NCBI RefSeq assembly: GCF_012932915.1
Contig: NZ_VCQU01000002.1
Coordinates: 558,001-622,000 of the forward strand
Direction of reading: 5' to 3'
Length of the DNA stretch: 64,000 bases
Origin: Antrihabitans stalactiti
Lineage (GTDB): Bacteria > Actinomycetota > Actinomycetes > Mycobacteriales > Mycobacteriaceae
Shown here piece after piece: positions 17,388-40,960 of this stretch. Position 1 is the stretch's first letter. Every line of letters starts with the position of its first letter. A program made the position numbers and the translations under genes. The notes beneath the pieces are model-generated. The model did no database searches and was not told the DNA's origin. It was given only the letters and a program-made list of their open reading frames with translations.

Positions 17388-17495
17388 CGGCCACACCTTA
17401 TTCGTCTCGGAATGCTCTTTGTATCGGTCGAATGGTCGACATTCGGTCGGTGATTCAAGTGCTACCGGCCGGCTCGCCAGGCAAGCGGAGTTGGG

Positions 17496-19898: not shown

Positions 19899-20088
19899 AG
19901 AAACACCACCGTTGTCGGTCGTTCGAAGGACACGGCGCGCCGACCTTAGTTGCTGCGACTGTCATTCGAACAGCCGACGCGAGAAGGGCCTCGTCTCGGT
20001 AGATTTGCCATCGACGGCAAGTCGGATACCACGACCGTGGCCAGCAGCCGAGCGATTGTAGCGACGCACGGTCTTAGAAACGGTGGTT
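19899..20088. promoter_or_regulatory. Divergent promoter region with 15-base motif shared with 39.9 kb
   Basis: Separates the minus-strand vWA gene from the ten-gene plus-strand operon. It contains TGCTGCGACTGTCAT at 19951-19965, followed by TCGAAC. The identical 15 bases, followed by GCAAAC, occur at 39916-39930 in the divergent region at the other end of the operon. The distance to the plus-strand start is similar at both sites (about 105-124 bases). It could be a regulator site or a promoter element; which strand it serves is unknown. Confidence 0.5.
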
Positions 20089-21261
20089 ATGAACGGCGAG
20101 TGGCAGGGCATGCAACCCGGTACCCCGCCGCCGCGGCCGGGACCGCCGCCGACGGGCGCTGTACCGAACTTCACGGGCGGCGCGGACCCGGTTTCGCCCA
20201 TTCAGTATGCGGAACCCGTATTTCCCGCACCGGTATTCCCAGGTCAGGCGCCGCTCCCGCAGGAAGTGATCCCGCTTGGACCGCCGCTGCCGGAGCGCGG
20301 TGGAAGCAGGAAGCCGCTGCTCATTGTCGCGGCCGTGATCGTGGCGCTGCTTGCGATCGGCGGTGTCACTTTTGCCGTCAGCTCAGGCGATGACGATACG
20401 AACGCGGCAAGTTCGGGCAAACGCAGCGCGCAGTCGCTCGCCGCAGGCGGCAGCCCAATCGTGCCTTGTGCGAGCCCGCCGGGCATGTCGGTCACTGGGT
20501 TCCGAAGGGACGGCCATCAGTTCATCGCGTCCATCTCAGTCAGTGCAGGGTGCGCCGACGGTGACATCCTCTCCTCCAGTGCAACTCGCGTCGCGATCTC
20601 CGATTCCGGAAGCAACGTCGCGGCGGCGACGTTCGACTTCGCCGCCAAGCCGATCGTGTTGCCGCGCAGCGGGGATGCGCCGGTCGCGCTCGAATTGTGC
20701 TTTAACCCCCCCGACTATTGGCGGTTGCCCGATTCGGTGAGCACGTCCGGCGCGCAGGTCGTCGTCGAGAAATTGGGGCAAGTGGGCGGACCCAGCCAGG
20801 CGGATCCCGCCGACGTCGTCGACAGCGTCGGCCGGGTGTGCGCATCGGGTGCCGCGCTACCGCAGACCGGTGATGCGGAATCCGCCAGTAGTGAAGGGCT
20901 GCAGGCGATGCGGACCACTGACGTCGCGCGGATTCGAGCGCTCGGCGCAGACAAATGGGTCCCGCAGGTCAGTACCAAACAGCCGGGACTGTTCTACGAC
21001 AACATCGTCTGGAACTTTGAGCAGATTCTGGGGGAGCAGTACTACTTCCGTGAGCGCTATCGCGAAACCGCGCTGCTGTGGACGGGTGACTTCCGTTCGT
21101 ACAACGATCCGAACTGGTGGGGTTCGGTCGTTTTGATCCCTTTCAGTAATTCGCAGGGGGCACTCGCATGGTGCGCGCAGCAGGGTATGGACAAAGACCA
21201 CTGCTTCGCCAAACGGGTCAACGCGACGGGCACACAGGGTTCGAACGAGTACCAGCCTTAG
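20089..21261 (+). CDS. Membrane-anchored secreted protein with FPG motif (operon gene 1)
   Basis: 390 residues (ATG 20089; GTG 20083 also possible). A Pro-rich cytosolic N-terminus includes YAEPVFPAPVFPGQAPLP, a motif shared with three other proteins in the window, then a TM helix (KPLLIVAAVIVALLAIGGVTFAV, about residues 76-98). The exported part has Cys pairs and ends in a Trp/Tyr-rich domain (TALLWTGDFRSYNDPNWWGSV...AWCAQQGMDKDHCFAKR). I do not recognise a named domain with confidence. As the first gene of the operon it probably supplies an outward-facing component. Confidence 0.7.
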   Translation: MNGEWQGMQPGTPPPRPGPPPTGAVPNFTGGADPVSPIQYAEPVFPAPVFPGQAPLPQEVIPLGPPLPERGGSRKPLLIVAAVIVALLAIGGVTFAVSSGDDDTNAASSGKRSAQSLAAGGSPIVPCASPPGMSVTGFRRDGHQFIASISVSAGCADGDILSSSATRVAISDSGSNVAAATFDFAAKPIVLPRSGDAPVALELCFNPPDYWRLPDSVSTSGAQVVVEKLGQVGGPSQADPADVVDSVGRVCASGAALPQTGDAESASSEGLQAMRTTDVARIRALGADKWVPQVSTKQPGLFYDNIVWNFEQILGEQYYFRERYRETALLWTGDFRSYNDPNWWGSVVLIPFSNSQGALAWCAQQGMDKDHCFAKRVNATGTQGSNEYQP

Positions 21262-21402
21262 CCGAAGTTTCCTACCGCCGCAGGCGATGTGCGTCGATCG
21301 TTCGACCGACATCGGTAGCGCGCGAACTGAGTAAGACTCGACTCTTGCGGCAGAGGTCGGAGCACGCACAGCGGTTCAGACGAGACAATTGGAGGGCGCA
21401 GG

Positions 21403-21957
21403 GTGTCCGGACCACCGAACCCATTCGACTTCAGTGACTTCGGGTCACCGGCGTCGAATCCCGACAGCGCGTCGTCCGCAGGCTTCGGTGGCGGAAATTT
21501 CGGGGGTTCCCCCATGGATCAGCGGCCTCCGTTCGACACATTCGGAGACTCGAATGTGGGGGATACATTCGGTTCGGCTGCGCCGATCGGTGACAGTTTC
21601 GGCCAGGCCACTGGGCTGGAACCCGCGCACGGGCAGGGCTTGTTCGCGCCCGAAGATATTGCCGGGCCGCCTGTTCTATGGGCGGGGATCGCGGGGGCGG
21701 CAGCACTGATCGGACTGGCGTTGGCGCTCCTCGGCTCGTCCGCATTCGGGATAGCGGTGGCCGGCTGGGTGATCGCGGGTCCCGTCGCCATCGGCCTGCT
21801 TGCCGTCTACACCGCTTTCGATACCAAGCAACAGACCAAGCCGTTCTACTCACAACCGGCATGGACAGCCTATTGCTATTGGGTAACGCTGGCCGTCGCG
21901 CTGGCCGGTGTGATCGTCGGTGCGCTGCGGATCGCCTACTGGGCGGGTACCCGATGA
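21403..21957 (+). CDS. Small F/G-rich membrane protein (operon gene 2)
   Basis: 184 residues from GTG 21403 with GGAGG nine bases upstream. The first 85 residues are low-complexity, rich in Phe, Gly, Ser and Asp (FDFSDFGSPAS, GGGNFGGSP, FGDSNVGDTFG), likely disordered and possibly adhesive. Three hydrophobic helices follow (about 93-113, 115-140, 155-178). The stop overlaps the next gene's ATG. No family is recognised. Confidence 0.65.
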   Translation: MSGPPNPFDFSDFGSPASNPDSASSAGFGGGNFGGSPMDQRPPFDTFGDSNVGDTFGSAAPIGDSFGQATGLEPAHGQGLFAPEDIAGPPVLWAGIAGAAALIGLALALLGSSAFGIAVAGWVIAGPVAIGLLAVYTAFDTKQQTKPFYSQPAWTAYCYWVTLAVALAGVIVGALRIAYWAGTR

Positions 21958-24851
21958 GCCGGCTGAGGCGTGTCTGCGCGGCCGTAGCGCTGTATGCCGT
22001 TGTGACACTGGGCATTCTCGGCGTAGGTGGCATGGGGCCGATTGCGACGGCAGTGCCCCCTCCCGCCGCCGCCAGTGCAATCACGAATTACGGAGCATGC
22101 ATCGCGGGCCAGGGCACCGGCGACTTACTACTGATGATCGACGAGTCAGCCAGCCTGCGTCAGTCCGATCCCGGTGGCGCCCGTGTGACCGCTGCCAAGT
22201 ACCTGATCGACCGGCTCGCCAGCTACGCCGACCGCAACCACCTCGCTGTAGATGTCGCGATCGCCGGGTTCTCGACGGACTTCACAGTCGACCGCGGTTG
22301 GACACCGGTTACACCGCAAAATGCTGACGACCTGAAGGCGGTCGTTGACAGGTTCGCCAACCGGGTGGACGGAAACGATACTGATTACCTGACTGCGCTG
22401 GAGGCGGCACGGGCGTATCTGGCGCAGCGCCCGCACGGCACCGGAAACGCACCACGATGCCAGGCGATCGGCTGGTTCACCGACGGCGCCTTCGATTTCC
22501 AAAACCGGTCCGGCCTGAGTGTTCCGTACGCGCCTGGTGTTGATATGAGTACTGAGGCCGGCGTCGCCGAAGCAGTTTCGCTCGGCGCCAACCAGATCTG
22601 CCGCCCAGGTGGCGTTGCCGACCAAATTCGCTCGTCGGGCATCGTGATCTTCGGAGTCGGATTAGTAGGCGGCGGCGCCCAAACGCCGAACTTCACCGAT
22701 ATGCGCCGCATCGTCGAAGGTTCGGCTGCTGGGGCCGGAGACTGTGGCGCGGTTAAGTCGCCGAAGCCGGGTGACTTCCACGAAGCGTCCGACATCGATC
22801 AACTCTTGTTCGCCTTCGACCAGCTCAGCACACCCGGACAGCAACCTACTGTGCACGACACCGGTGTTTGCGCCGGGACAGTGTGCGACACCGCACGGCA
22901 CAACTTCACCCTCGACGATTCGATCGATTTCGTCGACCTTCTCGCCAAGAGTGATCCGAGCCTGGTCCCGTACCTGGTGTCACCCGCCAACGAACAGCTA
23001 CGAATACCAATTCAAAACGAACCGCACGTCGACCAGCTCACAATCGCCGGCGCAGGCGTCACCTATAAGTGGGAGACGGCAGACACCGTCCGGATCAGCC
23101 TGTCGAAACCGAATGCTCCATGGTCGGGGCAGTGGGCACTGACGTTCGTCGACGAGGGTGGCGCCGGCACAGGCGTGTCGCAGAGCAGCATCAGTCTCGA
23201 AGCTGGGGTAAGGCCTGCCAGGCTCGATCAAGCAGCCCTCGCCGCCGGCCAGACTCCCGCGCCCGGACCGTCGCAGAGTCAGGAGCTGAAGTTCGGGCTC
23301 GTCGACCGGGGCGGGCAAACAAAGGATTCGTCGAGCCTTCTCGGTGAGGTCTCGTTGACTATCGATCTTGTGCCCCCCGGCGGGGTACCCGATCCGGCGA
23401 AGTTCGCGCCCGTCGTGCTATCGAAGGCAGAGATCGGTCAGCCGTTACGGCTCGATCTGTCCAGGGTGACCGCGGGGCACTACGACATGGCGCTCGGTCT
23501 GAAGTTGTCGACCGCACCTACCGTCGACTCGGCAGGCGCCGCGGTCCCCGGCACCGAGTTGGTAACGGTCCCGATCAGGCTGCCGATCGACATAGGGCCC
23601 GCTGTCGGGTATCCGACAATCGCGACGGCGCTCGATTTCGGTCAATCCAGTCGTGCGGGAACTGTCACCGCCAAACTGCCGGTGACGGGCCCTGGCTGCG
23701 TTTGGATCGAGAAGGCCACACCTGATCTGTCCGGCAATCCAGCTGGCGTGGGCGCCGTGACCGTCGGGGCGCAACGCGACGGTTCGTCTCGTGAGAAGTG
23801 CTTGAACTTGGACGACGGTAAGAACGGCACCATCGACGTCGAATTGACGACGGAGAACGAAGCCAAAGGCGCCCTCACCGGAACGTTCGTCGTCTCGTCG
23901 GTGTCCAACGATGCGCCCGACAAGGTTGTCAACCAGAACGTCAATCTAACGCTCGAGCTGACGAAGTCGCTCGATACACAGACGTTTTGGCTCACCCTCC
24001 TGCTTGCGCTGCTGCTCGGGCCCGGCCTGCCGTTGCTGCTTCTCTACGCAGCGAAATGGTTAACCGCACGAATCCCCGCACAACCCCTACTGGCAGTGGA
24101 GATTCCGGTGATGATCGATGCTGGAACTGTTCTGCGTGACGGCGAGCCGTTCGCGCTGCGCGAGCGCGATCTCGTCGATCCCGTACCAGGTCTGCACAAG
24201 CCAACCCGGCGTTTGCGGGTGGGGAGCATAGAACTGGCCACCCACATCGGCAGGTCACCTTTCGGCAGCGGCTACGTAGCGGCTCAGAAGACGATGCTGC
24301 TCAGTGCATCGTCGGAGACTCCAGCGTCGATTGGATCGCCGCCACGTGCCCGGTTGCCGCTCGCAATCCACAACAAGTGGATCGTGGTCAGCGATCCAAG
24401 CTGGGCGCCCGATCGTGCAGCGGTCATTTTGATGACCAGCGGCATGACGGATCAGACCCAGCGCGACGCGATCGCCGGGGACCTAGCCCGGCGCCTGCCG
24501 GCGCTGCTCGCCGAACTTCGGTCCGGCACACCAGGCTCGATTCCCGCTGGGCCTGCCGGTGCTGGCCCAGGCATTGGTGATCCGTTCGGGCCGGGTGGCG
24601 GTGATCCGTTCGGGCCGGGTGGTAGTGATCCGTTCGGGCCGGGTGGTAGTGATCTGTTCGGGCCGGGTGGTGGTGATTCCCACGCTCCGGCATCGACGGG
24701 CGGCTCCGTCCCGCCGTCGGCACCGCCTGCACCGTTCGGTGGCCCACCGCCACCGCCGCAGTACAGCGGCGCGCGCAGCGACGGTCCGCCGCCTCCGCCT
24801 CCGCCGCCTCAGTACGGCGGCAGCCCCGACCAACAAGGCAATCAATGGTGA
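21954..24851 (+). CDS. Secreted/anchored vWA protein with proline-rich cytosolic tail (operon gene 3)
   Basis: 965 residues from the ATG overlapping the previous stop. A signal peptide (RRVCAAVALYAVVTLGILGVGG) precedes an extracytoplasmic vWA domain with MIDAS LLLMIDESASLRQ and large Ig-like beta regions up to about residue 675. One TM helix follows (FWLTLLLALLLGPGLPLLLLY, around 681-701), then a cytosolic domain of about 165 residues and a low-complexity tail: four copies of an eight-residue unit (GDPFGPGG-like) and poly-Pro stretches ending QYGGSPDQQ. This layout lets an external metal-dependent ligand binder signal to cytosolic partners such as the tubulin-like protein encoded 43 bases downstream. 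The role is inferred. Confidence 0.8.
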   Translation: MSRLRRVCAAVALYAVVTLGILGVGGMGPIATAVPPPAAASAITNYGACIAGQGTGDLLLMIDESASLRQSDPGGARVTAAKYLIDRLASYADRNHLAVDVAIAGFSTDFTVDRGWTPVTPQNADDLKAVVDRFANRVDGNDTDYLTALEAARAYLAQRPHGTGNAPRCQAIGWFTDGAFDFQNRSGLSVPYAPGVDMSTEAGVAEAVSLGANQICRPGGVADQIRSSGIVIFGVGLVGGGAQTPNFTDMRRIVEGSAAGAGDCGAVKSPKPGDFHEASDIDQLLFAFDQLSTPGQQPTVHDTGVCAGTVCDTARHNFTLDDSIDFVDLLAKSDPSLVPYLVSPANEQLRIPIQNEPHVDQLTIAGAGVTYKWETADTVRISLSKPNAPWSGQWALTFVDEGGAGTGVSQSSISLEAGVRPARLDQAALAAGQTPAPGPSQSQELKFGLVDRGGQTKDSSSLLGEVSLTIDLVPPGGVPDPAKFAPVVLSKAEIGQPLRLDLSRVTAGHYDMALGLKLSTAPTVDSAGAAVPGTELVTVPIRLPIDIGPAVGYPTIATALDFGQSSRAGTVTAKLPVTGPGCVWIEKATPDLSGNPAGVGAVTVGAQRDGSSREKCLNLDDGKNGTIDVELTTENEAKGALTGTFVVSSVSNDAPDKVVNQNVNLTLELTKSLDTQTFWLTLLLALLLGPGLPLLLLYAAKWLTARIPAQPLLAVEIPVMIDAGTVLRDGEPFALRERDLVDPVPGLHKPTRRLRVGSIELATHIGRSPFGSGYVAAQKTMLLSASSETPASIGSPPRARLPLAIHNKWIVVSDPSWAPDRAAVILMTSGMTDQTQRDAIAGDLARRLPALLAELRSGTPGSIPAGPAGAGPGIGDPFGPGGGDPFGPGGSDPFGPGGSDLFGPGGGDSHAPASTGGSVPPSAPPAPFGGPPPPPQYSGARSDGPPPPPPPPQYGGSPDQQGNQW
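24576..24671 (+). repeat. Four 24-base tandem repeats in the vWA tail
   Basis: Four head-to-tail units of 24 bases encode GDPFGPGG, GDPFGPGG, SDPFGPGG and SDLFGPGG (with small changes between units). Near-identical DNA units in frame suggest recent expansion by slippage; copy number may vary between strains. Confidence 0.9.
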
Positions 24852-24894
24852 CGAGAACAAGTGTGATGCGACGAAACAACTTGGGAGGTAACCG

Positions 24895-27800
24895 ATGAGG
24901 CGGTTCTTGATCGTCGGCTGCGGCGGATCGGGCGGGGCGACGCTGTCCTACATGATGGATCAGCTCCGGTCGGATTTGGCTGCGCACGGTGTGAACAAGA
25001 TCCCCGCGGGATGGAAGTTCGTGCACCTGGATGTGCCGAGCGGGGCCGAGCGCGGGCCCGACGGATTGCCGAACGTCGAAGATCAGGACGGCGCCTACTT
25101 CGGAAGTGGTCCCCAGGGCGCCAACTATTCGATGCTCGACGGCGCGCTAAGTCAGCGTCTCGGTGCCCAACAGAGCCTCGACACGATCGCGACCTGGGCG
25201 CCGCGACGCCCTGACGCGGTCGCGATCCCGATCTCGGTTGGAGCCGGTCAATACAGAGCTGTCGGTCGCATGATTACGCTCAATAAGGTTTCTGAAATCC
25301 TTGCGCGGCTGCAGAATTCGTGGAGTCAGCTCAATCACGACACGACAAAGTCGGAGATGGCGCGACTATCGGTTCCCGGCCTCGGCGGGTACAACCCGAA
25401 TGACACCCCAATCGTGCTCGTCGTCTCGTCCATGGCCGGTGGTGCCGGAGCGTCGATGGCGTTGGACATCTGCCGGCTTCTGACGCTCGTCGAAGGCCTC
25501 GATCCGAAGTTGATGGGTGTGTTCATGGTGACGCCCGACATCTTCGATTCGCTGCCTAAGGCCGCGAGATCCGGTGTGCGCGCCAACGCACTTGCGATGC
25601 TCGGCGAGATCGTCGCAAGCCAGACGGGCTCGGCGCGCGAGCACGACCAGCGCACGCTGTCCGCGCTTGGTTTGCACAACGGTGCTGGCGCACTCATTCC
25701 ATTCGCTCGAGTGTTCCCCGTCGGTCGGAAGGTGGGAGCCGAAGGCGCGATCTTCGGCGACGGCTCGCAAAACGCGGTGTATCGGGGGCTCGCACGCGGG
25801 CTCGCGGGGCTGATGATGAGCGGCAAGGCGACCGATCAGTTCGTCTCGTACGACCTCGGCAACACAGGGTCGCCGGACGGCGACCGTGATTTTCTCGGCT
25901 GGGGAAGTGGTGTTTGGGACTCCTTGCCTTGGGGCTCTTACGGTTTCGCGAGTCTCAGTATGGGCCGCGATCGTTACGCCGAGTATTCAGCGCAGCGGCT
26001 TGCCCGCAGCAGCGTCGACAAGCTCCTCAAAGGCCATTTGCAGCCGGGCAACCTGGCGTCCTCGGTGGAACAAGCCACCGCGCTGCTGGATTCGCAGTGG
26101 GACGGGGTGCTCGTCGCCGTCGGTCTACCAGCTCTTTCCGGGCAGGGTCGGGCGGCGGCGTCGGTGGGACCATGGTTGGGCGGCGGAGCAATCCCGCGCC
26201 AGAGCACCGACGCCATGATCAGCGCCATCATCGAACAGCAACTGCGCCCTTATCTTCCCAACGGTGCGGGGATGAACGCAGCGCAATGGGTGCCGATGGT
26301 ACGCCAGCGAGTCGGTGAGCGACGAGCGGCGATGAACCAGGCCGTGCAGTCGACCGCGTACTCCTGGGCGTTTTCCTGGCACCAGGAGCTCGCTAACAGA
26401 ATCGTCGGCGTCGTTTCCAATGCGATTGCAGCACTAGGCCTTCCGTACGCGACTGCGCTAGCCGAACGGCTGCGCAGATACCTGTCAGACGGATTGCTGC
26501 CCGCGGCCCGTGATCTTGTCGGACACGCGAACAGCGACATCACCGCGATGCCTGCCGACGTCGAACCGACATTCGCGGCGTTGAAGAAGACGGTACCTAG
26601 CGGGCCGCAACTCAACGATCGCATTCTCGCGTCGTATGCCAACAGCGTGAGGACACATCTGTTTGCTCGTGCGGCCGGCCACGTCAGCTCGGCATGCGGC
26701 GCGATCGCCACCGAGGTGTTGATGCCCTTGATCGCCGCCATGAGCGAGGCGCAGCGGATTCTCGAGCACGCTACCCGTGAGCAGGTCGCCGATCTGGGTC
26801 TTGCCCGGCTGACGACCGTTCAATACGGCGCATGGCCGGCCGACGGGGAGGAGCGCGTGCACGCCCGCTTCGCTGAGGCCAACAACGAAGTGCTGCTGAC
26901 TAGTTCGACCGATTTCCAGCTGCAGTACGAGCGCGTCGATCTACCCCGCGCGGTCAGCGAGGGCGGTGGGCAACCTCCGCTGTCGGATGCGATACCGCTC
27001 GCGGCACGGCAGGTCATCTCCGGGTTGTGGGCGACCACGGGTGGCAATCGGCCACCCGGTGGGCTGGTCGAGAAGACCGCAGAGTGGCGTTCGCGGTCGT
27101 TCACCAACGATCCGTTCACCGGCGAGCTGCTCCAGCCGTCCCTTGCTCAGTTCGACGTTCATGTGCGCCCGCATGAACTACTTGATCGTGCACGGCAATT
27201 CGTCGCTCGACCGGGCGAGTCCTTCGACAAGTTCGTCCGCGTGTCACTGCGAAACTTCGTCCAAGGCGAAGGGGCTGCGGAATCCGAACTGGCGCAACGA
27301 CGTCATGACATCGTGGTGAAGTTTGCCGAGACGTTGTCGCTGGCCCGACCGCTGGCCACCGTGAGCGACGAGGCGCTGAATGTGTTGCACTACGGCGCAC
27401 AGCTCGAGTACCGGTACAAATTCTCCGACGTGCCGTTCGGCGGAATATCCGTCGGAGAGGAGTTGGCGAAGATCCTTGAGACGAACCCGCGCATCGATCA
27501 GGCGACTAAGGAGAACTTCGGCCGGTCGCTGAGCGATCAAGCCGACTTGACGAAGGTCGACGTTTTCGGTTCCTACCCGAACTATTCACCGTTGGCGTTC
27601 TCGTCTGTGCTGAAGCCGGTGGCCGAGCAATGGGCGCAGACTGCTGATCAAGCACGCGAATCGTTCTGGCGCTATCGGCGTACTCGACCGCTCGATGCGG
27701 CATTGCCGATGGCAGAGGGTGAGCGCCGAGCAATGGCAGCTGGGTGGTTCGTAGGGCAGCTCGTTGGGCGTGTGCAGATACCCGGGCCGCCATTCGGGAC

Positions 27801-28461: not shown

Positions 28462-28462
28462 G

Positions 28463-31249: not shown

Positions 31250-31290
31250 AATTGGTTCCGAATCAGTAGTTTTGGTGATGGAGGGCAGCG

Positions 31291-33690
31291 ATGGGTGCGA
31301 GTCCGGAGCTTCGCCTCGAGCAGCTGATGAAATGGCAACGAATTACCCAGGCGCGCGGTCTACGAACACCGACGCCCGAAACATTGCGGACGATTGCCTC
31401 GCTCAACACCATCGACGGCGACTACGAGCAAGCAGTAGAGGAATGGTCCGAGACGCTGGGTTGGCTGTTGCACCAGCTGAAGATGGGCGTCGTCGACCCA
31501 GTCGCGCAATTGCCGAACAAGTTGCTGGTCCCGAGGGCCGGCACGGGAACGAACGGGAGCCGCACGGTGTCATCAGCGTCTGAGAGCCGGTTCGGGGGGC
31601 CGTCGTCACCCGCGGAGCTGCGACTTGAGGCATTGCTCGAATGGCGGCGCCGAGCGATCGATGCGGGCCGGACCGAGGTCGCCGCGCTCACGGAAAAGAA
31701 ACTCCGCCTTATCTTGCGGATGCCGGGTCACTTGGCCCCGGACATTGCACGGACTTTGTCGGTATCGCCCGCGTTGGCGGCCGAGATCGCCAACGTGCTT
31801 TCGGATTCTGTCAAACAGGCACCGGCACCCGCGACCGATCCGCGCACCCAGGCGACACCGATGTCGACGCCGGCCAAGCAGGCGCACGCCAACGCGGCGG
31901 CGCCTCTACAGCCGGTGCCGGCCAGCCAGACGGCAGGGCGATCCGACACCACCCCCGCCTCACCGCGTGAAGCCATTCGGGAACGTCGAAGCGCACCGGT
32001 AGGAGTATTGCTCGACCTGGAACCGGAGGATTTCGACGAATTCGACTACTTTGATGCCCCCGACACCGTGCACACGATCAAGGTGACGGGCTCCCTGGCA
32101 ACGGGGATGACCTACGGCTGGCCCGCCTACTCGGCGGCCGACGGTGAGGTCGTCGTCTATCGGCTCGTCTCCAACGACGAGCATCAGCCGTGGGGGCCGG
32201 ACAAGGGTGACTACATCGGTGCGACGCTCGATACGCGGGTCGGCGATGCGAGGCGGTACGCGTCTGCGGTCCGGCACGTCCAAGTGTGGACTTATGTCGG
32301 CCTGAATGTTTCGGATGCGATCCGGCAACAACCAACGTTGTACGCGAATGGAGCGCTCGTCAGTCCCGTCACTGAACTAGAAATCCGCGAGGATCAGGGC
32401 CGCGTGATCGGACAGTGGTCGGTGTTCGAGGGCATTCGCGCTGTACAGGTCTATCGGATCCCGATCGAACGCGCGGCCTTCGGCGGTGAGGAACCGAGAT
32501 TCCGTATTCTCACCGATCTCCCGAACCTCGGTGGGTTCGTCGACCGTGGCGCTGAGCGGGGCAAGCGCTATCTGTACCGAGTACGCGCGGAAGCGACGAT
32601 AGATGGCACAACGCGGCTCTCGGTCCATACGCAGGCCGAGACCTTCGTCTCGGCGCTGCTCGAACCAGTCGAGGATCTGTCAGTCGTGTTTGGTGACGGT
32701 GACGACGGCGAGCGCCAGTTCGATCTAAAATGGACAACTCCGTCGGCGGGACGGGTGTACGTCTACCGCACGGTTAGTGGTCCCACGCCCGGTGCGGACG
32801 CGGTGCCATTGGCTGAAGGCCAGCTTGCTGGTGCCGGTCTACCGATCGAATCGCGCCTCGCACATCCTATTTCGTCGGATACTGCTTCCAGTAGCACTAT
32901 GGTCGACGTGCCTTGGCCGAGAGAATGGACGCGTGCCTACTTCACGCCGGTGACCGTGCTGGACGGGCGTTATCAGGTCGGCAAGACCACGTCGGCGACC
33001 CGCACCGAGAGGATCACACACGCCGAGATCGTCGAACGCGTCGACAAGCAGATTCTGACGTTCACCTGGCCCGCCGGCGCGGCGGCGGTGCTCGTCTACA
33101 CCGGTGTTCGGGGCCAGACCGCCGACCAGGGGCTCAGCGGCCAGCCCACCGAGATTTCCGCGGGTATGTACGCCCGTTTCGGTGGGCTGCACTTTCCGCA
33201 ACGCTTGCCCAACGGTGGTTGCTCCCTGCACATGGTGCCCGTGGCCTTCGCCGCCGGAGAACGAATCCAAGGGCAGTACGTGACCGTCGACTACCCGGGC
33301 ATGCTGCGTGTGTTCTATGACCTCGACATCACCCGCGGCAGTACGGGGGACCCTATAGTCGCCACGATCGAGATCGCTGCAGAGAAGGACACCGACGGTT
33401 CGCCACCTTTCGTGCTCGTCAACAATCCCGACCGGTTGCCGCTCGGTGTGCGCGACGGTGACGCGATCGACGTGGCGCGGGCGGGTGGTACGGACCGGCC
33501 CGCGAAGATGTTCAGCCCGCCCAATGGGCTTACAGCGTCGCGTAACGGTTTGAAGTTCCAGGCCGACGTGCGAGGCCGAACCGGCTTCCTGCGATTGTTC
33601 GCTCACCTTCCTCCCGAGCGGCTCGGCATTTTCGCGCTGCTCGATCCGCCTGTGGCCAAGCTTGTGCTCAGCGCGGGACGGCGGCGATGA
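31291..33690 (+). CDS. 799-aa protein with tandem HRDC-like repeats and beta-sandwich modules (operon gene 6)
   Basis: ATG 31291 has GGAGGG upstream. Residues 4-70 and 105-170 are two copies of one helical module: ASPELRLEQLMKWQR and SPAELRLEALLEWRR begin the repeats, and the second continues LTEKKLRLILRMPGHLAPDIA, the layout of an HRDC-like domain (nucleic-acid or protein binding). A Pro/Ala linker (180-235) is followed by several fibronectin-III-like beta modules (for example GEVVVYRLVSN, GRVYVYRTVSG, AAVLVYTGVRG). No signal or TM segment. A cytosolic adaptor role is inferred. The stop overlaps the next ATG. Confidence 0.7.
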   Translation: MGASPELRLEQLMKWQRITQARGLRTPTPETLRTIASLNTIDGDYEQAVEEWSETLGWLLHQLKMGVVDPVAQLPNKLLVPRAGTGTNGSRTVSSASESRFGGPSSPAELRLEALLEWRRRAIDAGRTEVAALTEKKLRLILRMPGHLAPDIARTLSVSPALAAEIANVLSDSVKQAPAPATDPRTQATPMSTPAKQAHANAAAPLQPVPASQTAGRSDTTPASPREAIRERRSAPVGVLLDLEPEDFDEFDYFDAPDTVHTIKVTGSLATGMTYGWPAYSAADGEVVVYRLVSNDEHQPWGPDKGDYIGATLDTRVGDARRYASAVRHVQVWTYVGLNVSDAIRQQPTLYANGALVSPVTELEIREDQGRVIGQWSVFEGIRAVQVYRIPIERAAFGGEEPRFRILTDLPNLGGFVDRGAERGKRYLYRVRAEATIDGTTRLSVHTQAETFVSALLEPVEDLSVVFGDGDDGERQFDLKWTTPSAGRVYVYRTVSGPTPGADAVPLAEGQLAGAGLPIESRLAHPISSDTASSSTMVDVPWPREWTRAYFTPVTVLDGRYQVGKTTSATRTERITHAEIVERVDKQILTFTWPAGAAAVLVYTGVRGQTADQGLSGQPTEISAGMYARFGGLHFPQRLPNGGCSLHMVPVAFAAGERIQGQYVTVDYPGMLRVFYDLDITRGSTGDPIVATIEIAAEKDTDGSPPFVLVNNPDRLPLGVRDGDAIDVARAGGTDRPAKMFSPPNGLTASRNGLKFQADVRGRTGFLRLFAHLPPERLGIFALLDPPVAKLVLSAGRRR

Positions 33691-36539
33691 CTTATCCCTC
33701 CGCAACATCTGCTGCCGCGTCGTGGCCGGGCCACGCCGCGGTCCCGCAATCGGTGCCCAGTCAGCAGTCGGTCGGCGGAGCGGCGATAAATAGGTTCGGT
33801 CAGCTGACGTATTCGTCGTTCGACGATGGTTCCGGCGTTGGCGGCGGCTGGCAGGTCAAAGACATCACAGGCGGTCTAACCGACACCGAGCGCGAACAAC
33901 TGCGTTTCTGGGTTCAGACGACTTTCGAATTGCCGAAGCCGCTGCCGCAGTTTCCGACTCCGGAAGACGTCGCACGCTTTCCGCGCAGACTGATGTACAC
34001 CCGGTTGCCCGACGGGCGAGCCGGGTACTGGCATACCGTTCCCGCCGGCGCGGACGGTTCTGGACGCCCGGGCAATGTCTTCGCACATACGGTGCTCGAT
34101 CGAGGACCTGACGCCACAGATGTCGACCTCCGCCCAATCGACCTGTGGCGTTCGTCGGACTGGCTGTGCCCATACGGTGCGGCGGACGTGGTCGAGGCCA
34201 AGTTGAGCACCGCGGCGTTGCCGGCGAGTGGTTCGGTTGTCAACCGACAGTCGGTGATCGAGTTTCTGTGTGACCCCGCCGAGTGGCGGATCGGCGTGCT
34301 CAGCGTGCTTCTCGACGCGGTCGCAGCAGCGCTCGCAGGAGGTCCGGCAGTTGTATTCGGCGCGCATTCGGACGACACCGCGGCTATGTGGATCGGCGCG
34401 GTGAGTCACTTGATGTCGGCCGGCACCGCGCGCCGCTTCGGCTGGAGCACGTTCGATCGCGCGGCCGGTGTGCCAGCGTCGCTCGGGCGCGGGGTTGTGC
34501 TGACTGCCGTCCCGATCGGCGACGTGGGCGCAGTGGCGGGCGCAGAGTCGCTCGTCGTATTACGTGAGAACGAGGTCCCGGCAATCGGCGATCTCGGAGG
34601 TGCTCCGCATCGCACCGCCGCAGGATCGGAGGTGCCCGTCACCGAATGGTCAGTGATCGCGCAGAGTGCTGTCGTCGATCATGAGACTTTCGACCACGCG
34701 CTACGCGTGCTGGATGATGTCGCGAGGTCGGTCGCCGATACGGGCCTGGATCCAGCATGGCCCCTCGCTATGGCAGCAGCGTTGATCGAAGAGTTGCGCG
34801 ACGACGTCGGCGCCGAAGCGGGTGCCGTGATCGCCCGGCACTCGCCGGATGATCTCAGCGCGAAACCAGAATTGGCAGAACGTGCTTCGGCAGCGATCGC
34901 CGATTCGTTGGGTACCTCTGCCGCCGACGCCTGGAAGGTCCTCGGGACCGCGAAAGGATCGAGTTCACGGGTTGCACTGGAGATGCTCGCCGCCGTGTAC
35001 GTCGAACGGGCGCTCAGCGATAGGCAGTGGCTCATCCAGGCCGGCGGCGTGCCGTTTGTGATGCATCGTCTCCGTGAACACTGGCGTCCCGAACGTCTCG
35101 ACCGTCAGATCACCGCGCATCTCGACGCGCTTAGTGAGCAGTTCCGCGAGGCGAGTCACCAGGGATTTCCGACGCAGCCCGAGCAGGTCTTCGCCGTGTT
35201 TCGTTCACTCGATCTACTTGTTCGTGCGAACTGCCTCGACTCAGTGTCCTACGGCGGGCTTTCGTCACTGGAGCGCGCGCAGAATCTCCTTGAAATGGCA
35301 GTCGTACCAACACTTGTCGATCCTGGTTCGGGTCCGGGGTTTGTTGCGGCCTGCGGGCCTCTCGACGAACGCACCGCGCGGGCATTGGTCCGGCCGGTGT
35401 TGGCCAGCGCGGCACCGATGAACCGAGGCACACTCGGTCAGCGGTCGTCGACTGAGGTGCTGACCTGGCTGATGCCACCGTCATGGGACGAGTTGCCATC
35501 TGCCAGGCAGTTGGCCGAATTGCCGGTCGGCGAGATCCACCCGCTCGCGGTTCTGACCGCGGAGTTGGCCAGCCAGCACATGGCCGATTCGAAGATGGCG
35601 AACCGGTGGATGCACCTCAACTGGCTGGTGCTGTGGCGGCTACTCGCGCAACACGGCGAACCAGACGTGCAGGCACCGGATGTCAAAACTGTCTTCGCGG
35701 CTGCATTCCCGCCCGCGGCACTCAATCCGTTGCTGGCGCGCTATCCCGGCATCGTGCCACCGCGATACTTTATGTCCACGTTCATGTTCGAGCCGCTGAC
35801 TGACGATTACAGGCGACTGCCAGCGAGCATCTTGGCACCCGCACGACCGGGATCACCGCCGCCTCTTGCAGGCCCGGGCGAGTGGGACGCGATCGCGTCG
35901 GCCATCTACCACGTGCGGGTTCACTCGGCATGGCATCTGATGTCGCGCGAGGAACGCACCGCTCTGCAGAAGCGATTCCTGGGACCAGCTTTGCGAAGGG
36001 TCGCCCCAAGCGGTGGCTCACGCGTCTCCGGTGACCTCGCACATTCGTTGGCCGTGCTGTCTGTAGCCGAGGCAGTGGATGATCCGTCACGCTCCGACAT
36101 CCTTGAGGCTGCAAAAATTGTTGTGCAACAGGAGAATGCTGCGAATCGGGCAAGGCTTGTCGCCGCGGTCGCCGATCTCACGCGCTCGGAAGGACTCTCG
36201 GTCGGTTGGCTGGTCGAGGCTGCCGTCGTGGGTGGCGACCAAGCGCCAGAGCGGAGACTCGCCCGCCCGATCGAGCGATTTCTCGGCACACTTGCGCGGG
36301 ACGTCGATGATCGGCATGTGTCGCTGCTCGACGAAGTGGTCGAACGTCTTGTTGAGCAGAACCGGTACATCGGTCCGGCCGAACCAGCGGCCATCGAGCG
36401 CGCGCTCGTCGAGCGCGTCAGGAGGACCTACGGGGGCGAAGAAGACAAGATTCTCTCCCTGTACCGCAAGTACGCCAAGAAGTGGCTCGAAGACCGTGGC
36501 ATCGAACCGGGTGGCGTCCGTACCCGGAGGAGAAGGTGA
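33687..36539 (+). CDS. GAP1-type GTPase-associated protein, 950 aa (operon gene 7)
   Basis: The N-terminus FGQLTYSSFDDG...GGWQVKDITGGLTDTEREQL and RLMYTRLPDGRAGYWHTVPAG (about residues 35-130) fits the GAP1-N2 domain, with the long helical middle and C-terminal segments expected for GAP1-M and GAP1-C. These proteins are encoded beside TRAFAC-type GTPases and are presumed partners of them; a biochemical activity is not proven. It is cytosolic, lacks TM segments and is coupled by ATGA to gene 6. The GTPase lies two genes downstream, as this pairing predicts. Confidence 0.8.
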   Translation: MTYPSATSAAASWPGHAAVPQSVPSQQSVGGAAINRFGQLTYSSFDDGSGVGGGWQVKDITGGLTDTEREQLRFWVQTTFELPKPLPQFPTPEDVARFPRRLMYTRLPDGRAGYWHTVPAGADGSGRPGNVFAHTVLDRGPDATDVDLRPIDLWRSSDWLCPYGAADVVEAKLSTAALPASGSVVNRQSVIEFLCDPAEWRIGVLSVLLDAVAAALAGGPAVVFGAHSDDTAAMWIGAVSHLMSAGTARRFGWSTFDRAAGVPASLGRGVVLTAVPIGDVGAVAGAESLVVLRENEVPAIGDLGGAPHRTAAGSEVPVTEWSVIAQSAVVDHETFDHALRVLDDVARSVADTGLDPAWPLAMAAALIEELRDDVGAEAGAVIARHSPDDLSAKPELAERASAAIADSLGTSAADAWKVLGTAKGSSSRVALEMLAAVYVERALSDRQWLIQAGGVPFVMHRLREHWRPERLDRQITAHLDALSEQFREASHQGFPTQPEQVFAVFRSLDLLVRANCLDSVSYGGLSSLERAQNLLEMAVVPTLVDPGSGPGFVAACGPLDERTARALVRPVLASAAPMNRGTLGQRSSTEVLTWLMPPSWDELPSARQLAELPVGEIHPLAVLTAELASQHMADSKMANRWMHLNWLVLWRLLAQHGEPDVQAPDVKTVFAAAFPPAALNPLLARYPGIVPPRYFMSTFMFEPLTDDYRRLPASILAPARPGSPPPLAGPGEWDAIASAIYHVRVHSAWHLMSREERTALQKRFLGPALRRVAPSGGSRVSGDLAHSLAVLSVAEAVDDPSRSDILEAAKIVVQQENAANRARLVAAVADLTRSEGLSVGWLVEAAVVGGDQAPERRLARPIERFLGTLARDVDDRHVSLLDEVVERLVEQNRYIGPAEPAAIERALVERVRRTYGGEEDKILSLYRKYAKKWLEDRGIEPGGVRTRRRR

Positions 36540-36573
36540 CCGTGCGCGAACGAAACCGAAAGGACTGACCGGC

Positions 36574-37605
36574 GTGCCGACATATGTGCTGGAAGGTGCA
36601 GGCCGTGCGGTCTTTCCGCGACGGCCGATCGTCGTGTCCATGACCGTCGTCGGGCCCGTGGCCTCCGCGACGATTCGGGCGCTCGTCAACGGCGTCGACG
36701 ATTCACGGGTCGTCCGGCCTACCCCCGGTTTGCTGGTCCTGCCGCGCGTCGACGCGCCAACCGTGCTTCGCCTTATGCCGGCAGGACCGGCAGAGTTTCC
36801 GCCCGATACGACTGTGCATCTGACGCTCGCTGTCGAGGACCGCTCCGACCCGGATCCGGATCGGGCTGTGCTTGGCCCGATCGACGTTTCCGGGCTTACG
36901 CACATAGACGTTGCCGCGCTCGAATCCGTCGGAGAAGGAATCTCGGTTGCGGCGTTGCGCGGCGGTCGGGAGATCGAACTTGGTCCCGTCGCCAATCAGG
37001 CGCGCGTCGCGACACGCGCGGTGTTGGGTGTCGATCAGCTCCCCGAGCACGCGCAGGCCGATATCGCGATCGCGGTCGACATGTCGGCGTCGATGCTCCC
37101 AGCGTTCGCCGACGGCAGTGTCGCCGCTGTGGTGGATGTCATCTCAGGCATCGCAAGCGTTGTCGCGCCACACCGGAGGATTCGCCTTTGCCTCGCAGAT
37201 GCGTCGCCTCGGTGGTTGGAAATCGAAGATCTCGCGACAGCGTCAGCCGTGGTGACAGCTGAAGTCGTCAATGTGGTACTCGTGTCCGGATTTCAGTCCG
37301 CGGCGGTTTCGCAGCTCGACGGCAGTGCTGCCGATATGGTGACCTTCATCCTCACCGACGCAGTTCCCGCCGACAGCAACGGGCTAGCGTACGACACCCG
37401 TGACAGTCGTCATATCGTGACTATTCAGACTCCGTTCGACGGGCAAGAAGCGATGCCGAATGTGACGATTGTAGCGCCACCTCCTCCTGGGGCATCGGCG
37501 CTCGAACGTCTTGTACGAGACCGGGACGCGGTCAATGCCGCCGTCCGGTCGATGCTCAATGCGACCACCCTCGGTGGACGCGGACATGCGGTGGTGACTC
37601 GATGA
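36574..37605 (+). CDS. Soluble vWA-domain protein (operon gene 8)
   Basis: 343 residues from GTG 36574 with AAAGGA about 9 bases upstream. The N-terminal 150 residues are a beta-sandwich (PTYVLEGAGRAVFPRRPIVVS). A vWA domain begins near residue 165 with MIDAS IAIAVDMSASMLPA. The C-terminal end (ALERLVRDRDAVNAAVRSML) is helical. There is no signal peptide, so it is cytosolic, unlike the two membrane vWA proteins of this locus. The stop overlaps the GTPase start, suggesting balanced synthesis and a direct complex. Confidence 0.78.
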   Translation: MPTYVLEGAGRAVFPRRPIVVSMTVVGPVASATIRALVNGVDDSRVVRPTPGLLVLPRVDAPTVLRLMPAGPAEFPPDTTVHLTLAVEDRSDPDPDRAVLGPIDVSGLTHIDVAALESVGEGISVAALRGGREIELGPVANQARVATRAVLGVDQLPEHAQADIAIAVDMSASMLPAFADGSVAAVVDVISGIASVVAPHRRIRLCLADASPRWLEIEDLATASAVVTAEVVNVVLVSGFQSAAVSQLDGSAADMVTFILTDAVPADSNGLAYDTRDSRHIVTIQTPFDGQEAMPNVTIVAPPPPGASALERLVRDRDAVNAAVRSMLNATTLGGRGHAVVTR

Positions 37606-38759
37606 CCAAGTGCCCCAGGTGCTTTCACCCGGTGGATCCGAACAACTACGTCTGGATGTGCGTGTCCGGGCGCTGCGAGGCCAAACCGGATCCGGCTGCA
37701 AGCGCCTTCACCGGCGGTCCCGTCGCTAGCGGGCCGATCCTGCAGTTGCGTCAGGCACCCGGCGCTGCGCCGGGCTGGGCGCCGCCCGATGGGGCTGCCT
37801 GCCCGACCTGCAACGAACGCACACCCGAGGTGTGCGCAATGTGTCACTATCGCTACCCGGAGGGCTGGCGTCAGGCACAAGCGACGTGCATCGCCATGGC
37901 AGGTGCACGTGCTACAGGTAAGAGTCTCTACATCGCGGTTGTCATCAAACAGCTCGAACAGTTAGGTGAGCGACTCGGTTGTTCCGTCGAGCCTGCGACG
38001 CAGCTGACCCAGACGAACTACCAGACTTACTACGAGAAGCCACTGTACGAGGAACGCGGACTTATGCAGTCCACCCAGCGTGCCGACGTCGAAGGTTCCT
38101 ATCAACGAGAGCCGCTGATCTTCAGTCTCGGGCTGTGGGGCGGAGTCCGCCGTTATGTGGTCATACGGGATGTCGCGGGGGAGGACCTGGAATCGAGTGC
38201 GTCCCAAGCGCTACACCTCAGTTTCTTCGCAAACGCTGACGGCGTGTTCTTCATGTTCGATCCGCTCAAGGTGTCCGAGATCCGCGACCAACTGATGGAC
38301 TTGGTTCCCAGTCAACTTCGGATTGGTGGTGAACCGAAGACGGTGCTGAGCAATGTCCTTATGAGCGTTGGGATCGGTACGCCGAAGGTCGCTGTAATTC
38401 TCTCCAAATTCGATGCGTTGCAGGCGCTTCGGAAGGTCGATGGTTCCGAGTGGAGCCAGCTGATGGCGAACCCGGGGGCCGCGTACCTGCGTGATCCGAG
38501 CATGAGTGTCCGCTACAACGATGTCGATGGCGAGTTGCTGCACCAAGAAGTCCGCAGCCTCTTGTTGAAGCTGCACGCCGGCCCTTTGGTCGCGGCTGTT
38601 GAAAACCCGACGAGCGGTGCGCCTATCCCGTTCCGCTTCTTCGCTGTCTCGGCACTCGGCGATTCCCCGATCGGCGAGAACATTCACTCGCGCGGAATCG
38701 CACCGTTTCGGTGCGTCGATCCAGTCCGCTGGATTCTGTCGCCCGTCGGCGTCCTCTGA
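37602..38759 (+). CDS. TRAFAC-type GTPase with N-terminal zinc ribbons (operon gene 9)
   Basis: 385 residues. The N-terminus has C-x2-C...C-x4-C (Cys4, 7, 20, 25) and a second CPTC...CAMC pair (about residues 67-85), a treble-clef or zinc-ribbon unit. The G domain follows: G1 GARATGKS (about 102-109), G3 IRDVAGED, G4 LSKFDAL in place of NKxD, and G5 VSALGDS. It resembles the double-GTPase/TRAFAC group linked to GAP1 proteins. It should be the energy-using switch of the operon, partnered with the GAP1-like and vWA proteins next to it. Atypical G4 leaves guanine specificity to be tested. Confidence 0.83.
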   Translation: MTKCPRCFHPVDPNNYVWMCVSGRCEAKPDPAASAFTGGPVASGPILQLRQAPGAAPGWAPPDGAACPTCNERTPEVCAMCHYRYPEGWRQAQATCIAMAGARATGKSLYIAVVIKQLEQLGERLGCSVEPATQLTQTNYQTYYEKPLYEERGLMQSTQRADVEGSYQREPLIFSLGLWGGVRRYVVIRDVAGEDLESSASQALHLSFFANADGVFFMFDPLKVSEIRDQLMDLVPSQLRIGGEPKTVLSNVLMSVGIGTPKVAVILSKFDALQALRKVDGSEWSQLMANPGAAYLRDPSMSVRYNDVDGELLHQEVRSLLLKLHAGPLVAAVENPTSGAPIPFRFFAVSALGDSPIGENIHSRGIAPFRCVDPVRWILSPVGVL

Positions 38760-38774
38760 AACGGAAGTCAACAG

Positions 38775-39458
38775 ATGAGCTATCTACCGCCGCCCTCGGA
38801 CCCCTTCTCGAACGGCGGATCGGCGCCGCCGCCCGATTGGGGATCGTCGTGGCCGCCACCTGCGCCCTTCACGTCCGCGCCCTTCGCGTCCGTCCCCGTG
38901 CCGGCGACGCCGGCTAATCGGGGCGGATACGCGGCGGCCGACAAACCGCCCGGAACAATTTGGGTCGCGTTCGGCCTGACCCTTGCTGCGGCAGTTGTTT
39001 TGCTTGGAAGTGGAATCCGCTGGGCCCTATGGATTTTCGATCTGAGACGCTACGCGGCGGGTGTCACCGACACTATCCCAGACGGGGAGGTGTCAGGCTT
39101 CTCGGCTGCGCAGGTCGGCGGCTGGGCTGATGATGCGGCCATGTCCGTAGTGATCGTGTTAGCGATCCTGTACATCCTGATCGCCGCCGTTTATGTGCTG
39201 ATGGCGTTCCTGGCGAAAGCGGGAAGCGAGGCGGGCCGGATTGTCTCGACGGTATTCGCCGGATTGTCGTCGATCTTCGTCTTGGGCGGGCCGATTAGCT
39301 GGCTGATCGTGGCCCTGGGCGTCGGCGCGGTCGTCTGTATGTGGCTCGCGCCATCCACCGCGTACATCCAGGTGAAGAAGATCGCCCGCACCGGAATCGT
39401 GCCAAGCGCTTACCCTCCGCCACCTGGACCGCAAGGGACGTACGGATATCCGTATTAA
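38775..39458 (+). CDS. Proline-rich four-TM protein (operon gene 10)
   Basis: 227 residues with GGAAG upstream of ATG 38775. A Pro/Ala-rich N-terminus (PPPSDPFSNGGSAPPPDWG) precedes hydrophobic helices around 58-80, 115-142, 150-175 and 180-200, and a short tail APSTAYIQVKK...YPYPY type with repeated Pro/Tyr. The pattern resembles small actinobacterial membrane proteins of unknown function. It closes the operon, ending 10 bases from the convergent lipoprotein gene. Confidence 0.65.
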   Translation: MSYLPPPSDPFSNGGSAPPPDWGSSWPPPAPFTSAPFASVPVPATPANRGGYAAADKPPGTIWVAFGLTLAAAVVLLGSGIRWALWIFDLRRYAAGVTDTIPDGEVSGFSAAQVGGWADDAAMSVVIVLAILYILIAAVYVLMAFLAKAGSEAGRIVSTVFAGLSSIFVLGGPISWLIVALGVGAVVCMWLAPSTAYIQVKKIARTGIVPSAYPPPPGPQGTYGYPY

Positions 39459-40034: not shown

Positions 40035-40958
40035 GTGCGAATGTCGCTGGGCACGGGTGGAGTCGGTCCACGGGCTGCTGCGTTTGTGATGGCATTGGCA
40101 GCGGCGTGCTCGACGGTGCTTGCCGTACCCTCAGCCAGCGCGGCGCCCATTGGACGAACGCTTGTGGTTTTGGGCGATTCCTTCACCGCAACATCCCCAT
40201 TCGTAGGGGGAGATCCCGACGGGTGCACGAGACCACCGACGGCATGGCCGGCGCGGCTTGCGGCGGCGAGTGGATTGCTGGGAACCCCTGGCTACGAGGA
40301 CGTCTCGTGTAGCGGTGGGAGCATCGATACAGGCGGTGGCTGGACGCTCGTGCATCAAGCTCGGAAGGCGGCTGCCGACGGTGCGTTCGGCGATTCAACA
40401 CGAGCTGTGCTCATTCAGATCGGGTGGAACGACACGTGGGGCGCGTCACCGGGCCGAGCGTTTCCATCGATCGACTGTCTGATGGATGTGATCCGAGGCT
40501 GCGGTTTCGATGCAATCAGCCAGGGCCGTCTACCCGACTTCCTCGCTGTAACCCCGCTTGCGTTTGCCGACCGTACTCGCGAGGTGGTCAATTACATCAA
40601 GTACTACGCGCCGAAGTCCCGGATCGTCTTCGTGGGCTACCCGGAGGTTTTTCCGCCTGGACAGTCGACTGCGTGTCTGAGCCTTCCAGCCGGCGGCCAG
40701 GTGGTTCAGCCTCGAGCTGAGGGCTACATTGCATTCCTAGACCACCTTGACGCGGCACAGCGCGGTGCGGCAGGCGTACTCGGAGTCGAATTCTTTGATG
40801 CGCGATCCGTGACCGCCCGCCACGGCAGTTGTGCCGCAGATTCGTGGATCGGTGGATTTACCGAACCGAACTCATTGTTCGTCGGAGCACCGATCCATCC
40901 CTCGGTTGCCGGCAACGAGGTTTTGGCTGCGGCATTGCGTGCGCAACTGGGTCTTTGA
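40035..40958 (+). CDS. Secreted SGNH-family hydrolase
   Basis: 307 residues from GTG 40035 (AAAGGA 8 bases upstream) or ATG 40041. The signal peptide ends ...VPSASAAPIG. Block I is VVLGDSFTAT with the nucleophile Ser, block II SCSGGSIDT, block III IGWNDTW. In block V the conserved Asp three residues before the catalytic His is replaced: GAPIHPSVAG has Ala there. Some SGNH enzymes work with a Ser-His dyad, so activity is not excluded. Six Cys suggest disulfides. The gene is followed after two bases by a membrane acyltransferase, a pairing common in envelope O-acylation/deacylation. Confidence 0.8.
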   Translation: MRMSLGTGGVGPRAAAFVMALAAACSTVLAVPSASAAPIGRTLVVLGDSFTATSPFVGGDPDGCTRPPTAWPARLAAASGLLGTPGYEDVSCSGGSIDTGGGWTLVHQARKAAADGAFGDSTRAVLIQIGWNDTWGASPGRAFPSIDCLMDVIRGCGFDAISQGRLPDFLAVTPLAFADRTREVVNYIKYYAPKSRIVFVGYPEVFPPGQSTACLSLPAGGQVVQPRAEGYIAFLDHLDAAQRGAAGVLGVEFFDARSVTARHGSCAADSWIGGFTEPNSLFVGAPIHPSVAGNEVLAAALRAQLGL

Positions 40959-40960
40959 CA

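Follow-up and report, generated by a model that had tools for sequence, protein, structure and literature searches.

Ten genes on the + strand of a 64,000-nucleotide stretch from Antrihabitans stalactiti (GCF_012932915.1, NZ_VCQU01000002.1:558,001-622,000, forward strand; the whole stretch is referred to as the window) encode, among others, a tubulin-like protein, a GTPase, a GAP1 protein and two vWA-type proteins, which raises the question of which of these genes form one system and what this system would do. The genes are labelled g1 to g10 and span 20083-39458 of the window. Operons of FtsZl1, vWA and GTPase genes are already in print (Makarova and Koonin 2010, PMC2875224), as is the actinobacterial tubulin form of the GAP1-N2 GTPase systems (Kaur et al. 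2020, PMC7159879), and the window operon is a full copy of this tubulin-type GAP1-N2/DO-GTPase system. The kind itself is therefore known, and functionally uncharacterised; new here are a rigid core of eight genes, a structural hint of a complete tubulin fold and a recurrent neighbourhood of Ter genes. The function predicted for the operon is most likely that of an envelope-stress or conflict device with an exported metal-site vWA protein, a GTPase switch and a membrane-proximal tubulin.

A unit of eight genes

All ten genes that an earlier interpretation of the DNA letters (the sequence-only reading) had described as closely packed and partly overlapping on one strand were confirmed. Neighbouring genes overlap or are closely spaced, with overlaps between g2 and g3 (ATGA at 21954), g6 and g7 (at 33687) and g8 and g9 (at 37602); the start of g3 was corrected from 21678 to 21954 and that of g8 from 36079 to a GTG at 36574. 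Relatives were collected with 14 aligned tubulins as query against GTDB genome contigs, which gave 213 confirmed loci, and the counts reported here are based on the best 80 of these 213. At least two of the genes g2 to g9 were carried by 78 of the 80 loci, each time contiguously, in a single order and on the same strand, and all eight were present in 42. Because g2 to g9 recur in one order and on one strand without an intervening gene in 78/80 loci, their grouping goes beyond chance, and the gene order proposed for the window is thus kept in other genomes as far as these eight genes are concerned.

Presence of the individual genes among the 80 loci was 80 for the tubulin, 78 for g5, 77 for g6, 74 for g3, 72 each for g2 and g7, 69 for g8 and 48 for g9. 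Missing block genes fall at the ends of the stretches: where g2 is absent (eight loci), the first core gene starts at most 215 bases from the stretch end, and where g9 is absent (32 loci), the last core gene stops at most 200 bases from it. The stop-to-start gap had a maximum of 209 bases and a median of 2, as determined for the 389 of 490 neighbouring pairs with a placeable start. The two loci with the tubulin only (L054 and L081) are short stretches, and the L081 tubulin reads as two open reading frames (ORFs). Thirteen longer regions, seven of which come from genomes already among the 80, all carry g3 to g9 in order. As a separate observation, locus L103 (G122:C2) holds a stretch of about 2.7 kb with an rve/Mu_transpos_C_2 protein between g6 and g7, an insertion that the near-identical L104 does not have.

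The conserved unit is therefore eight genes, g2 to g9, and not ten plus two, since g1, g10 and the two divergent neighbours were not conserved where this was testable. The first gene, g1 (20083..21261, +), encodes a probably anchored or exported protein with a Pro-rich N-terminus and one transmembrane (TM) segment (79-97) and stands in the slot that precedes the conserved block; its homologues were found in 3/80 loci, all on the opposite strand and away from g2. A homologue of g10 (38775..39458, +), which encodes a membrane protein with five hydrophobic segments, stands in the corresponding place in only 1 of the 13 longer regions, while its count of 0/80 says little, as only 4/80 loci extend 500 bases beyond g9. 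Neither gene can thus be retained as a constant operon part. The same applies to a divergent DUF7937/vWA/LRV_2 membrane protein (17496..19898, -) and a single-TM propeller-like protein (PQQ_2, below cut-off; 15768..17396, -), which the sequence-only reading had counted among the parts of an assembled machine: linkage to the operon was found in 0/80 loci, 64 of which include 3.5 kb or more of sequence before g2. As the propeller is unlinked to the operon, it provides no evidence for ligand binding by the machine. The divergent vWA protein matches 39/151 genomes of the family (own genome included; E <= 1e-10), with partial coverage outside its own genome. The idea of an assembled machine is supported by the fixed eight-gene unit, without the propeller and the divergent vWA protein.

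The tubulin, the putative switch proteins and the membrane components

The tubulin-like protein g4 (24895..28461, +; 1188 aa) matches the Pfam family Tubulin_2, that is FtsZl1, with an E-value of 4.6e-47, which places it directly in a nucleotide-binding family as the sequence-only reading had expected. The nucleotide-loop residues G8, G10, G11, S12, G13, G182, G183, G185 and S187 are invariant over 46 rows. A structure model of g4 (predicted local distance difference test score, pLDDT, 87.9; predicted template modelling score 0.79) gave Foldseek matches that were mainly FtsZ, TubZ and tubulins at the top, with weak E-values (best 3.9e-3). These Foldseek matches themselves were re-aligned with VIA-align, for which only the alignment end points are considered: CetZ (3zid_A) aligned with a Z of 19.7 and a root-mean-square deviation of 3.6 over 316 residues of its 360-residue chain, spanning model residues 1-923, and tubulins aligned with a Z of 17.9-19.4 over 337-369 residues, with the range reaching about 1022 in the model and about 413-435 in the tubulin chains. 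Since 313-369 aligned residues are spread across 900-1000 residues of the model, the simplest reading is that g4 has a complete tubulin fold, with a long helical insertion that apparently splits the second domain. A profile alignment of g4 with 30 actinobacterial FtsZ proteins was not significant (E 0.1), and the pairing of D320 (44/46) and N323 (46/46) in this alignment with what we take to be the T7 aspartates of FtsZ is a lead only.

Like the FtsZl1 operons of Makarova and Koonin, the window operon combines a Tubulin_2 protein, whose N-terminal domain has the GTP loops, with vWA, GTPase and membrane genes. In the available text of that study, T6-H7 could not be placed and the family had no similarity to the known C-terminal domain (PMC2875224), whereas the g4 model matches both tubulin domains, the second apparently after the insertion. 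The model thereby bears on the question, raised by a reviewer in 2010, of whether the FtsZl1 family keeps the parts needed for polymerisation (PMC2875224). The protein is not the cell-division FtsZ orthologue of this genome, as the TIGR00065 match lies elsewhere (G000:C12:400281). In another genus group, which also holds Williamsia genomes, two adjacent shorter proteins, each of which matches Tubulin_2 in part (E about 2e-6 and 6e-5), form a separate, diverged tubulin-pair locus (L015-L020; G059, G142, G076).

The putative switch consists of g9, g7, g6 and g8. For g9 (37602..38759, +), the window protein itself matched no GTPase model in its own Pfam scan, and the assignment of this gene to a nucleotide-binding family, claimed from the sequence alone, is carried by its relatives: DO-GTPase2 matches 13 of 14 family members (E <= 0.001; all except the window copy), and GARxxGK, RDVAGED and SKFD of the P-loop GTPase signature are invariant in all 14. 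The protein has the glutamate after Walker B and the N-terminal zinc ribbons of TRAFAC DO-GTPases; the zinc-ribbon cysteines are present in the window copy and missing in 5/14 (L101, L102, L109, L111 and L113). The GAP1 protein g7 (33687..36539, +) matches GAP1-N2 (E 1.5e-22) and GAP1-M (E 1.3e-9) and has a variable C-terminal half, which some lineages have in a shorter form or lack. In one Mycobacterium clade (L022, L037, L041) and in several, not all, Corynebacterium-type copies (L100, L101, L109, L111, L113), its ORF reaches only about half to two thirds of the usual size, so the C-terminal part of GAP1 seems to be dispensable or replaceable. The cytosolic adaptor g6 (31291..33690, +) belongs to a gene published as HRDC plus FNIII for this type of system; in the family studied here, HRDC was matched by 1/31 members (E 0.045) and fn3 by 4/31, the window protein matching neither. 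Among the family names given beforehand, tubulin, GTPase, GAP1 and vWA are therefore retained, and the HRDC label of g6 is weak. The cytosolic vWA-like protein g8 (36574..37605, +) has no Pfam match in the window and was called vWA on its DxSxS motif, which is found in 44/57 copies; the one Pfam family matched by its relatives is vWA-TerF-like (6/30 members at E <= 0.01, best 8.9e-4), so that g8 is weakly TerF-type through these relatives.

The second vWA protein, g3 (21954..24851, +), matches VWA_2 (E 1.8e-8). A hydropathy scan, the method used for all topology statements here, found a signal-like segment (7-25) and one TM segment (682-700), followed by a tail, in the window protein. Residues D63, S65, S67, T143 and D177, which we take from established knowledge of vWA domains to be a complete metal-ion-dependent adhesion site (MIDAS), as well as seven cysteines, are conserved in 95% or more of the 74 rows compared (the window plus 73 loci). 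On the basis of these conserved MIDAS residues and cysteines, the vWA part of g3 is most likely located outside the cell and metal-binding. As to the FNIII and beta-rich parts of the membrane vWA protein, g3 showed vWA and the TM segment, and FNIII was unmatched by Pfam. Further vWA proteins are encoded about 23 kb (window 62064-63773, +) and about 38 kb (G000:C12:635865) downstream of the operon.

The first gene of the block, g2 (21403..21957, +), encodes a small membrane protein with three hydrophobic segments; three were found in 62/68 loci and two in 6/68. The 928-aa protein g5 (28463..31249, +) has an alpha/beta N-terminal domain and TM segments at 541-559 and 565-583, and across 77 loci its homologues have two (37) or three (35) such segments. 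In the g5 model (pLDDT 86.4) both segments lie in helices, the second of which runs to about residue 640. Two other identities were considered for g5. A second, decayed tubulin was rejected (weak match to 8to0_Df, which we take from its length to be a tubulin chain, Z 7.5; probability of 0.3% in a profile comparison with g4), and an N-terminal P-loop GTPase (Z about 7 to Rab/Ras, within the background range of the tool) is not claimed. The placement of parts on both sides of the membrane, which was part of the sequence-only reading, is thus borne out, with a predicted exported vWA protein, TM segments, and the tubulin and GTPase in the cytosol. A signal-like segment and multiple TM segments among the components could also suit a GTPase-driven transport or secretion device with the tubulin as scaffold, an idea raised by a reviewer in PMC2875224; given that no transporter or channel family was found above cut-off in the block, we regard such a device as very improbable.

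Compared with the available text of Kaur et al. 2020 (PMC7159879), the operon shares the zinc-ribbon DO-GTPase with the Walker-B glutamate, the GAP1-N2/M protein, the single tubulin with a long helical (C-terminal) region that is the actinobacterial tubulin theme, the membrane vWA protein and the adaptor gene, and it differs in that HRDC and FNIII are only weakly supported. The likeness to actinobacterial NTP-dependent conflict systems noted beforehand thus corresponds to their type, and the mixture of an external vWA protein, TM parts and cytosolic tubulin and GTPase, which had been put forward as a departure from it, is already described by these authors. Beyond that text go the constancy of the eight genes, including that of g2 and g5, the Ter neighbours and the whole, split tubulin fold.

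Distribution and the Ter neighbourhood

Tubulin_2 was found in 1/4 genomes of the genus, 17/151 of the family (three of which rest on short partial matches in shorter proteins) and 28/394 of the class, and GAP1-N2 in 50/394 class genomes. Both were present in 12 class genomes; in 5/12 (G000, G135, G002, G413 and G497) the two genes share a contig at a distance of about 8-9 kb, and in the remaining 7/12, where they are on different contigs or 3.1 Mb from each other, no link was seen. The patchy presence of Tubulin_2 is as expected for a dispensable response system. A FastTree tree of the tubulins follows genus for the most part; exceptions include a Mycolicibacterium row next to Gordonia, and Rhodococcus, which falls into more than one clade. 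Block genes track rpoB in 14 genomes (rho 0.76-0.86), with lower values (0.44-0.74) in the nine genomes outside a small-genome group that is probably Corynebacterium.

In the reading of Makarova and Koonin, for which membrane remodelling was predicted (PMC2875224), the operon would represent a constitutive membrane-remodelling or vesicle machine that senses no attack, in which the tubulin shapes the membrane, the vWA and TM proteins anchor it and the GTPase times it. A fixed gene order without a variable effector inside it, a tubulin tree that mostly follows genera and a g4 model that matches polymer-forming tubulins are all consistent with such a machine; however, a basic function is difficult to reconcile with presence in 17/151 family genomes and absence from 3/4 genus members, and the recurrent Ter neighbours also speak against it. 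We therefore consider it a possible but somewhat unlikely explanation.

The gene upstream of g2 varies and may represent a lineage-specific input. This slot holds TerD in Williamsia, some Rhodococcus and Gordonia and one Nocardia, g1 in the window and, in some Mycobacterium-type loci, a membrane protein of a DUF4190 family that was found in 10 loci (two members Pfam-confirmed); in one Gordonia locus an AIM24-domain protein lies directly 5' of the block (L067:4735-6429). Upstream neighbours were shared by 22/25 pairs at >=90% tubulin identity, 15/65 at 80-90%, 33/91 at 70-80%, 19/108 at 60-70%, 20/736 at 50-60% and 18/991 below 50%, and were thus commonly shared only at >=90% identity, in a comparison without a housekeeping control. 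The right flank looks accessory too, because a YNCE-like propeller (42145-43413, +), which stands beside a GDSL lipase, an acyltransferase and a beta-lactamase-fold gene, is matched at only 34-46% in the three remaining genomes of the genus. The GDSL-acyltransferase-propeller-beta-lactamase cassette is located downstream of the operon in the window (40035-44663) and upstream and inverted in the closest relative (L021:1038-5823; 72-74% tubulin identity), so block and flank have moved relative to each other. An MMPL gene of the left flank has several paralogues.

Patchy distribution and the few upstream neighbours shared at lower tubulin identity would also be compatible with an anti-phage abortive system, in which the tubulin or a TM component acts as a toxin that GAP1 and the GTPase restrain until phage entry. 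Kaur et al. class such systems, in the available text, as conflict systems (PMC7159879), and flank ORFs matching PADLOC models (45 families, 84 ORFs; 24 of the 25 listed being single-ORF) point in the same direction. Against this stand the missing housekeeping control of the flank comparison and the lack of a known effector domain in the ten genes (Pfam for all ten, NCBIfam and PADLOC for 9/10). The conservation of the tubulin and the GTPase argues against it as well, although g6 and GAP1 are less conserved: mean column identities, which use differing row sets and are comparable only roughly, are 52% for the tubulin (46 rows) and 51% for the GTPase (14 rows), 42% for g3 (28 rows), 40% for g5 (46 rows) and 36% for g8 (30 rows), and only 34% for g6 (31 rows) and 31% for GAP1 (27 rows). 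An abortive system of this kind appears unlikely. An AAA+ protein, the MoxR partner of MoxR-vWA ternary (VMAP) systems, was not found in the ten genes by Pfam or in nine of them by NCBIfam.

One recurrent feature of the flanks is their similarity to the Ter stress-response systems, reportedly treated by Anantharaman et al. in 2012. Among the 68 loci whose upstream flank is 1 kb or longer (about 6.5 kb at most), 16 have TerD in this flank, three of them by weaker matches (L047, L073, L076). In 11 of the 68, TerD has the orientation of g2 and ends less than 1 kb short of it, with gaps of 41-884 bases; four of these loci are from Rhodococcus, three each from Williamsia and Gordonia and one from Nocardia. 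Four genomes with an adjacent TerD carry 9-13 TerD matches each, so chance adjacency would be about 0.1% per locus; as the loci are related, the 11 are not 11 independent events, and the tubulin tree requires at least four changes for adjacent TerD or at least seven for any TerD in the flank. Other Ter-type genes adjoin the operon in some genera, namely TerC/DUF475 in Arthrobacter and Pseudarthrobacter, TelA in Arthrobacter, and PRTase_2/TRSP and StiP/PELOTA in Gordonia. Unlike Ter systems, the window has no TerD, and the operon proteins other than g8, through its relatives, have no Ter family match; general Pfam scans found no TerC or TelA in the window, where no search was aimed at them.

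A general link between Ter and FtsZl1 genes was rejected. Of 25 other Tubulin_2 class genomes searched, 17 have TerD, and among the matches listed, on contigs many of which are short, 16 of these 17 had no TerD within 10 kb of Tubulin_2, the nearest being about 16 kb (G410) and about 20 kb (G265) away. No report of a Ter link to the FtsZl1/DO-GTPase operon was found in a literature search that left most subscription papers outside, and the sole mention of TerD in the available text of Kaur et al. 2020 concerns the signalling domains of VMAP systems (PMC7159879). With the Ter link, a response to envelope or metal stress or to conflict becomes more likely than a housekeeping role.

Proposed working and its meaning

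Taken as a whole, the observations are best explained by a tubulin-type GAP1-N2/DO-GTPase system that runs from outer sensing through a switch to tubulin assembly, an explanation to which we give an even chance. In this system, g3 would face outwards and, depending on metal, bind a ligand or sense wall damage; g2 and g5, the latter through its pair of neighbouring TM helices on a long helix, would pass the change of state inwards; and a threshold switch could be formed by the DO-GTPase together with GAP1, g6 and g8. The output would be a GTP-dependent tubulin assembly beneath the membrane, by which the envelope is remodelled or sealed, or the cell is stopped.

Several points weigh against this explanation and its stress-response setting. 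The order from switch to tubulin is one that we infer. The protein g3 is probably exported, as predicted from hydropathy and cysteines, and across 73 loci it shows at least two segments in 41 and only one in 32. TerF matches at E <= 0.01 were not found for 24/30 members of the g8 family, the window copy included. Variable components are a stated hallmark of GAP1-N2 conflict systems in the available text of Kaur et al. 2020 (PMC7159879), and no variable effector gene was found inside the g2-g9 block, the variable features being the C-terminus of GAP1 and the gene that precedes g2. PADLOC-DB 2.0.0 gave no credible match for nine genes (without g2) and the divergent vWA protein, the sole match being PD-T4-6 to g1 (E 0.032). 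TerD was absent from 52/68 upstream flanks, from the window (the 11 TerD matches of its own genome are all on other contigs) and altogether from 6/14 operon-bearing genomes; since the window and these six genomes are without it, Ter is not obligatory.

A more specific proposal, which we consider doubtful, is that the operon acts as the membrane executor of a Ter-type metal or envelope stress pathway, in which the MIDAS would be loaded with metal, TerD would provide the input at the upstream slot, the TerF-type vWA protein would act as a relay and the DO-GTPase would license the split-fold tubulin on the membrane. TerC proteins reportedly supply exported enzymes of B. subtilis with metal (PMC10550928, PMC12096827), and on this ground TerC/DUF475-type chaperones might help to load the MIDAS site of g3, a guess that shares the low probability of the whole proposal. 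If true, it would unite FtsZl1/DO-GTPase and Ter, both of them large and uncharacterised, in a single pathway.

Tubulin_2/FtsZl1 proteins have been known since 2010, and our literature search, with most subscription papers outside it, found no experimental study of one. For such work, the constant unit of eight genes, g2 to g9, represents a minimal set for expression, C. glutamicum, with matches to both Tubulin_2 and GAP1-N2, would be a safe laboratory host, and the Ter neighbours point to metals, tellurite, envelope damage and phage as stimuli worth trying.

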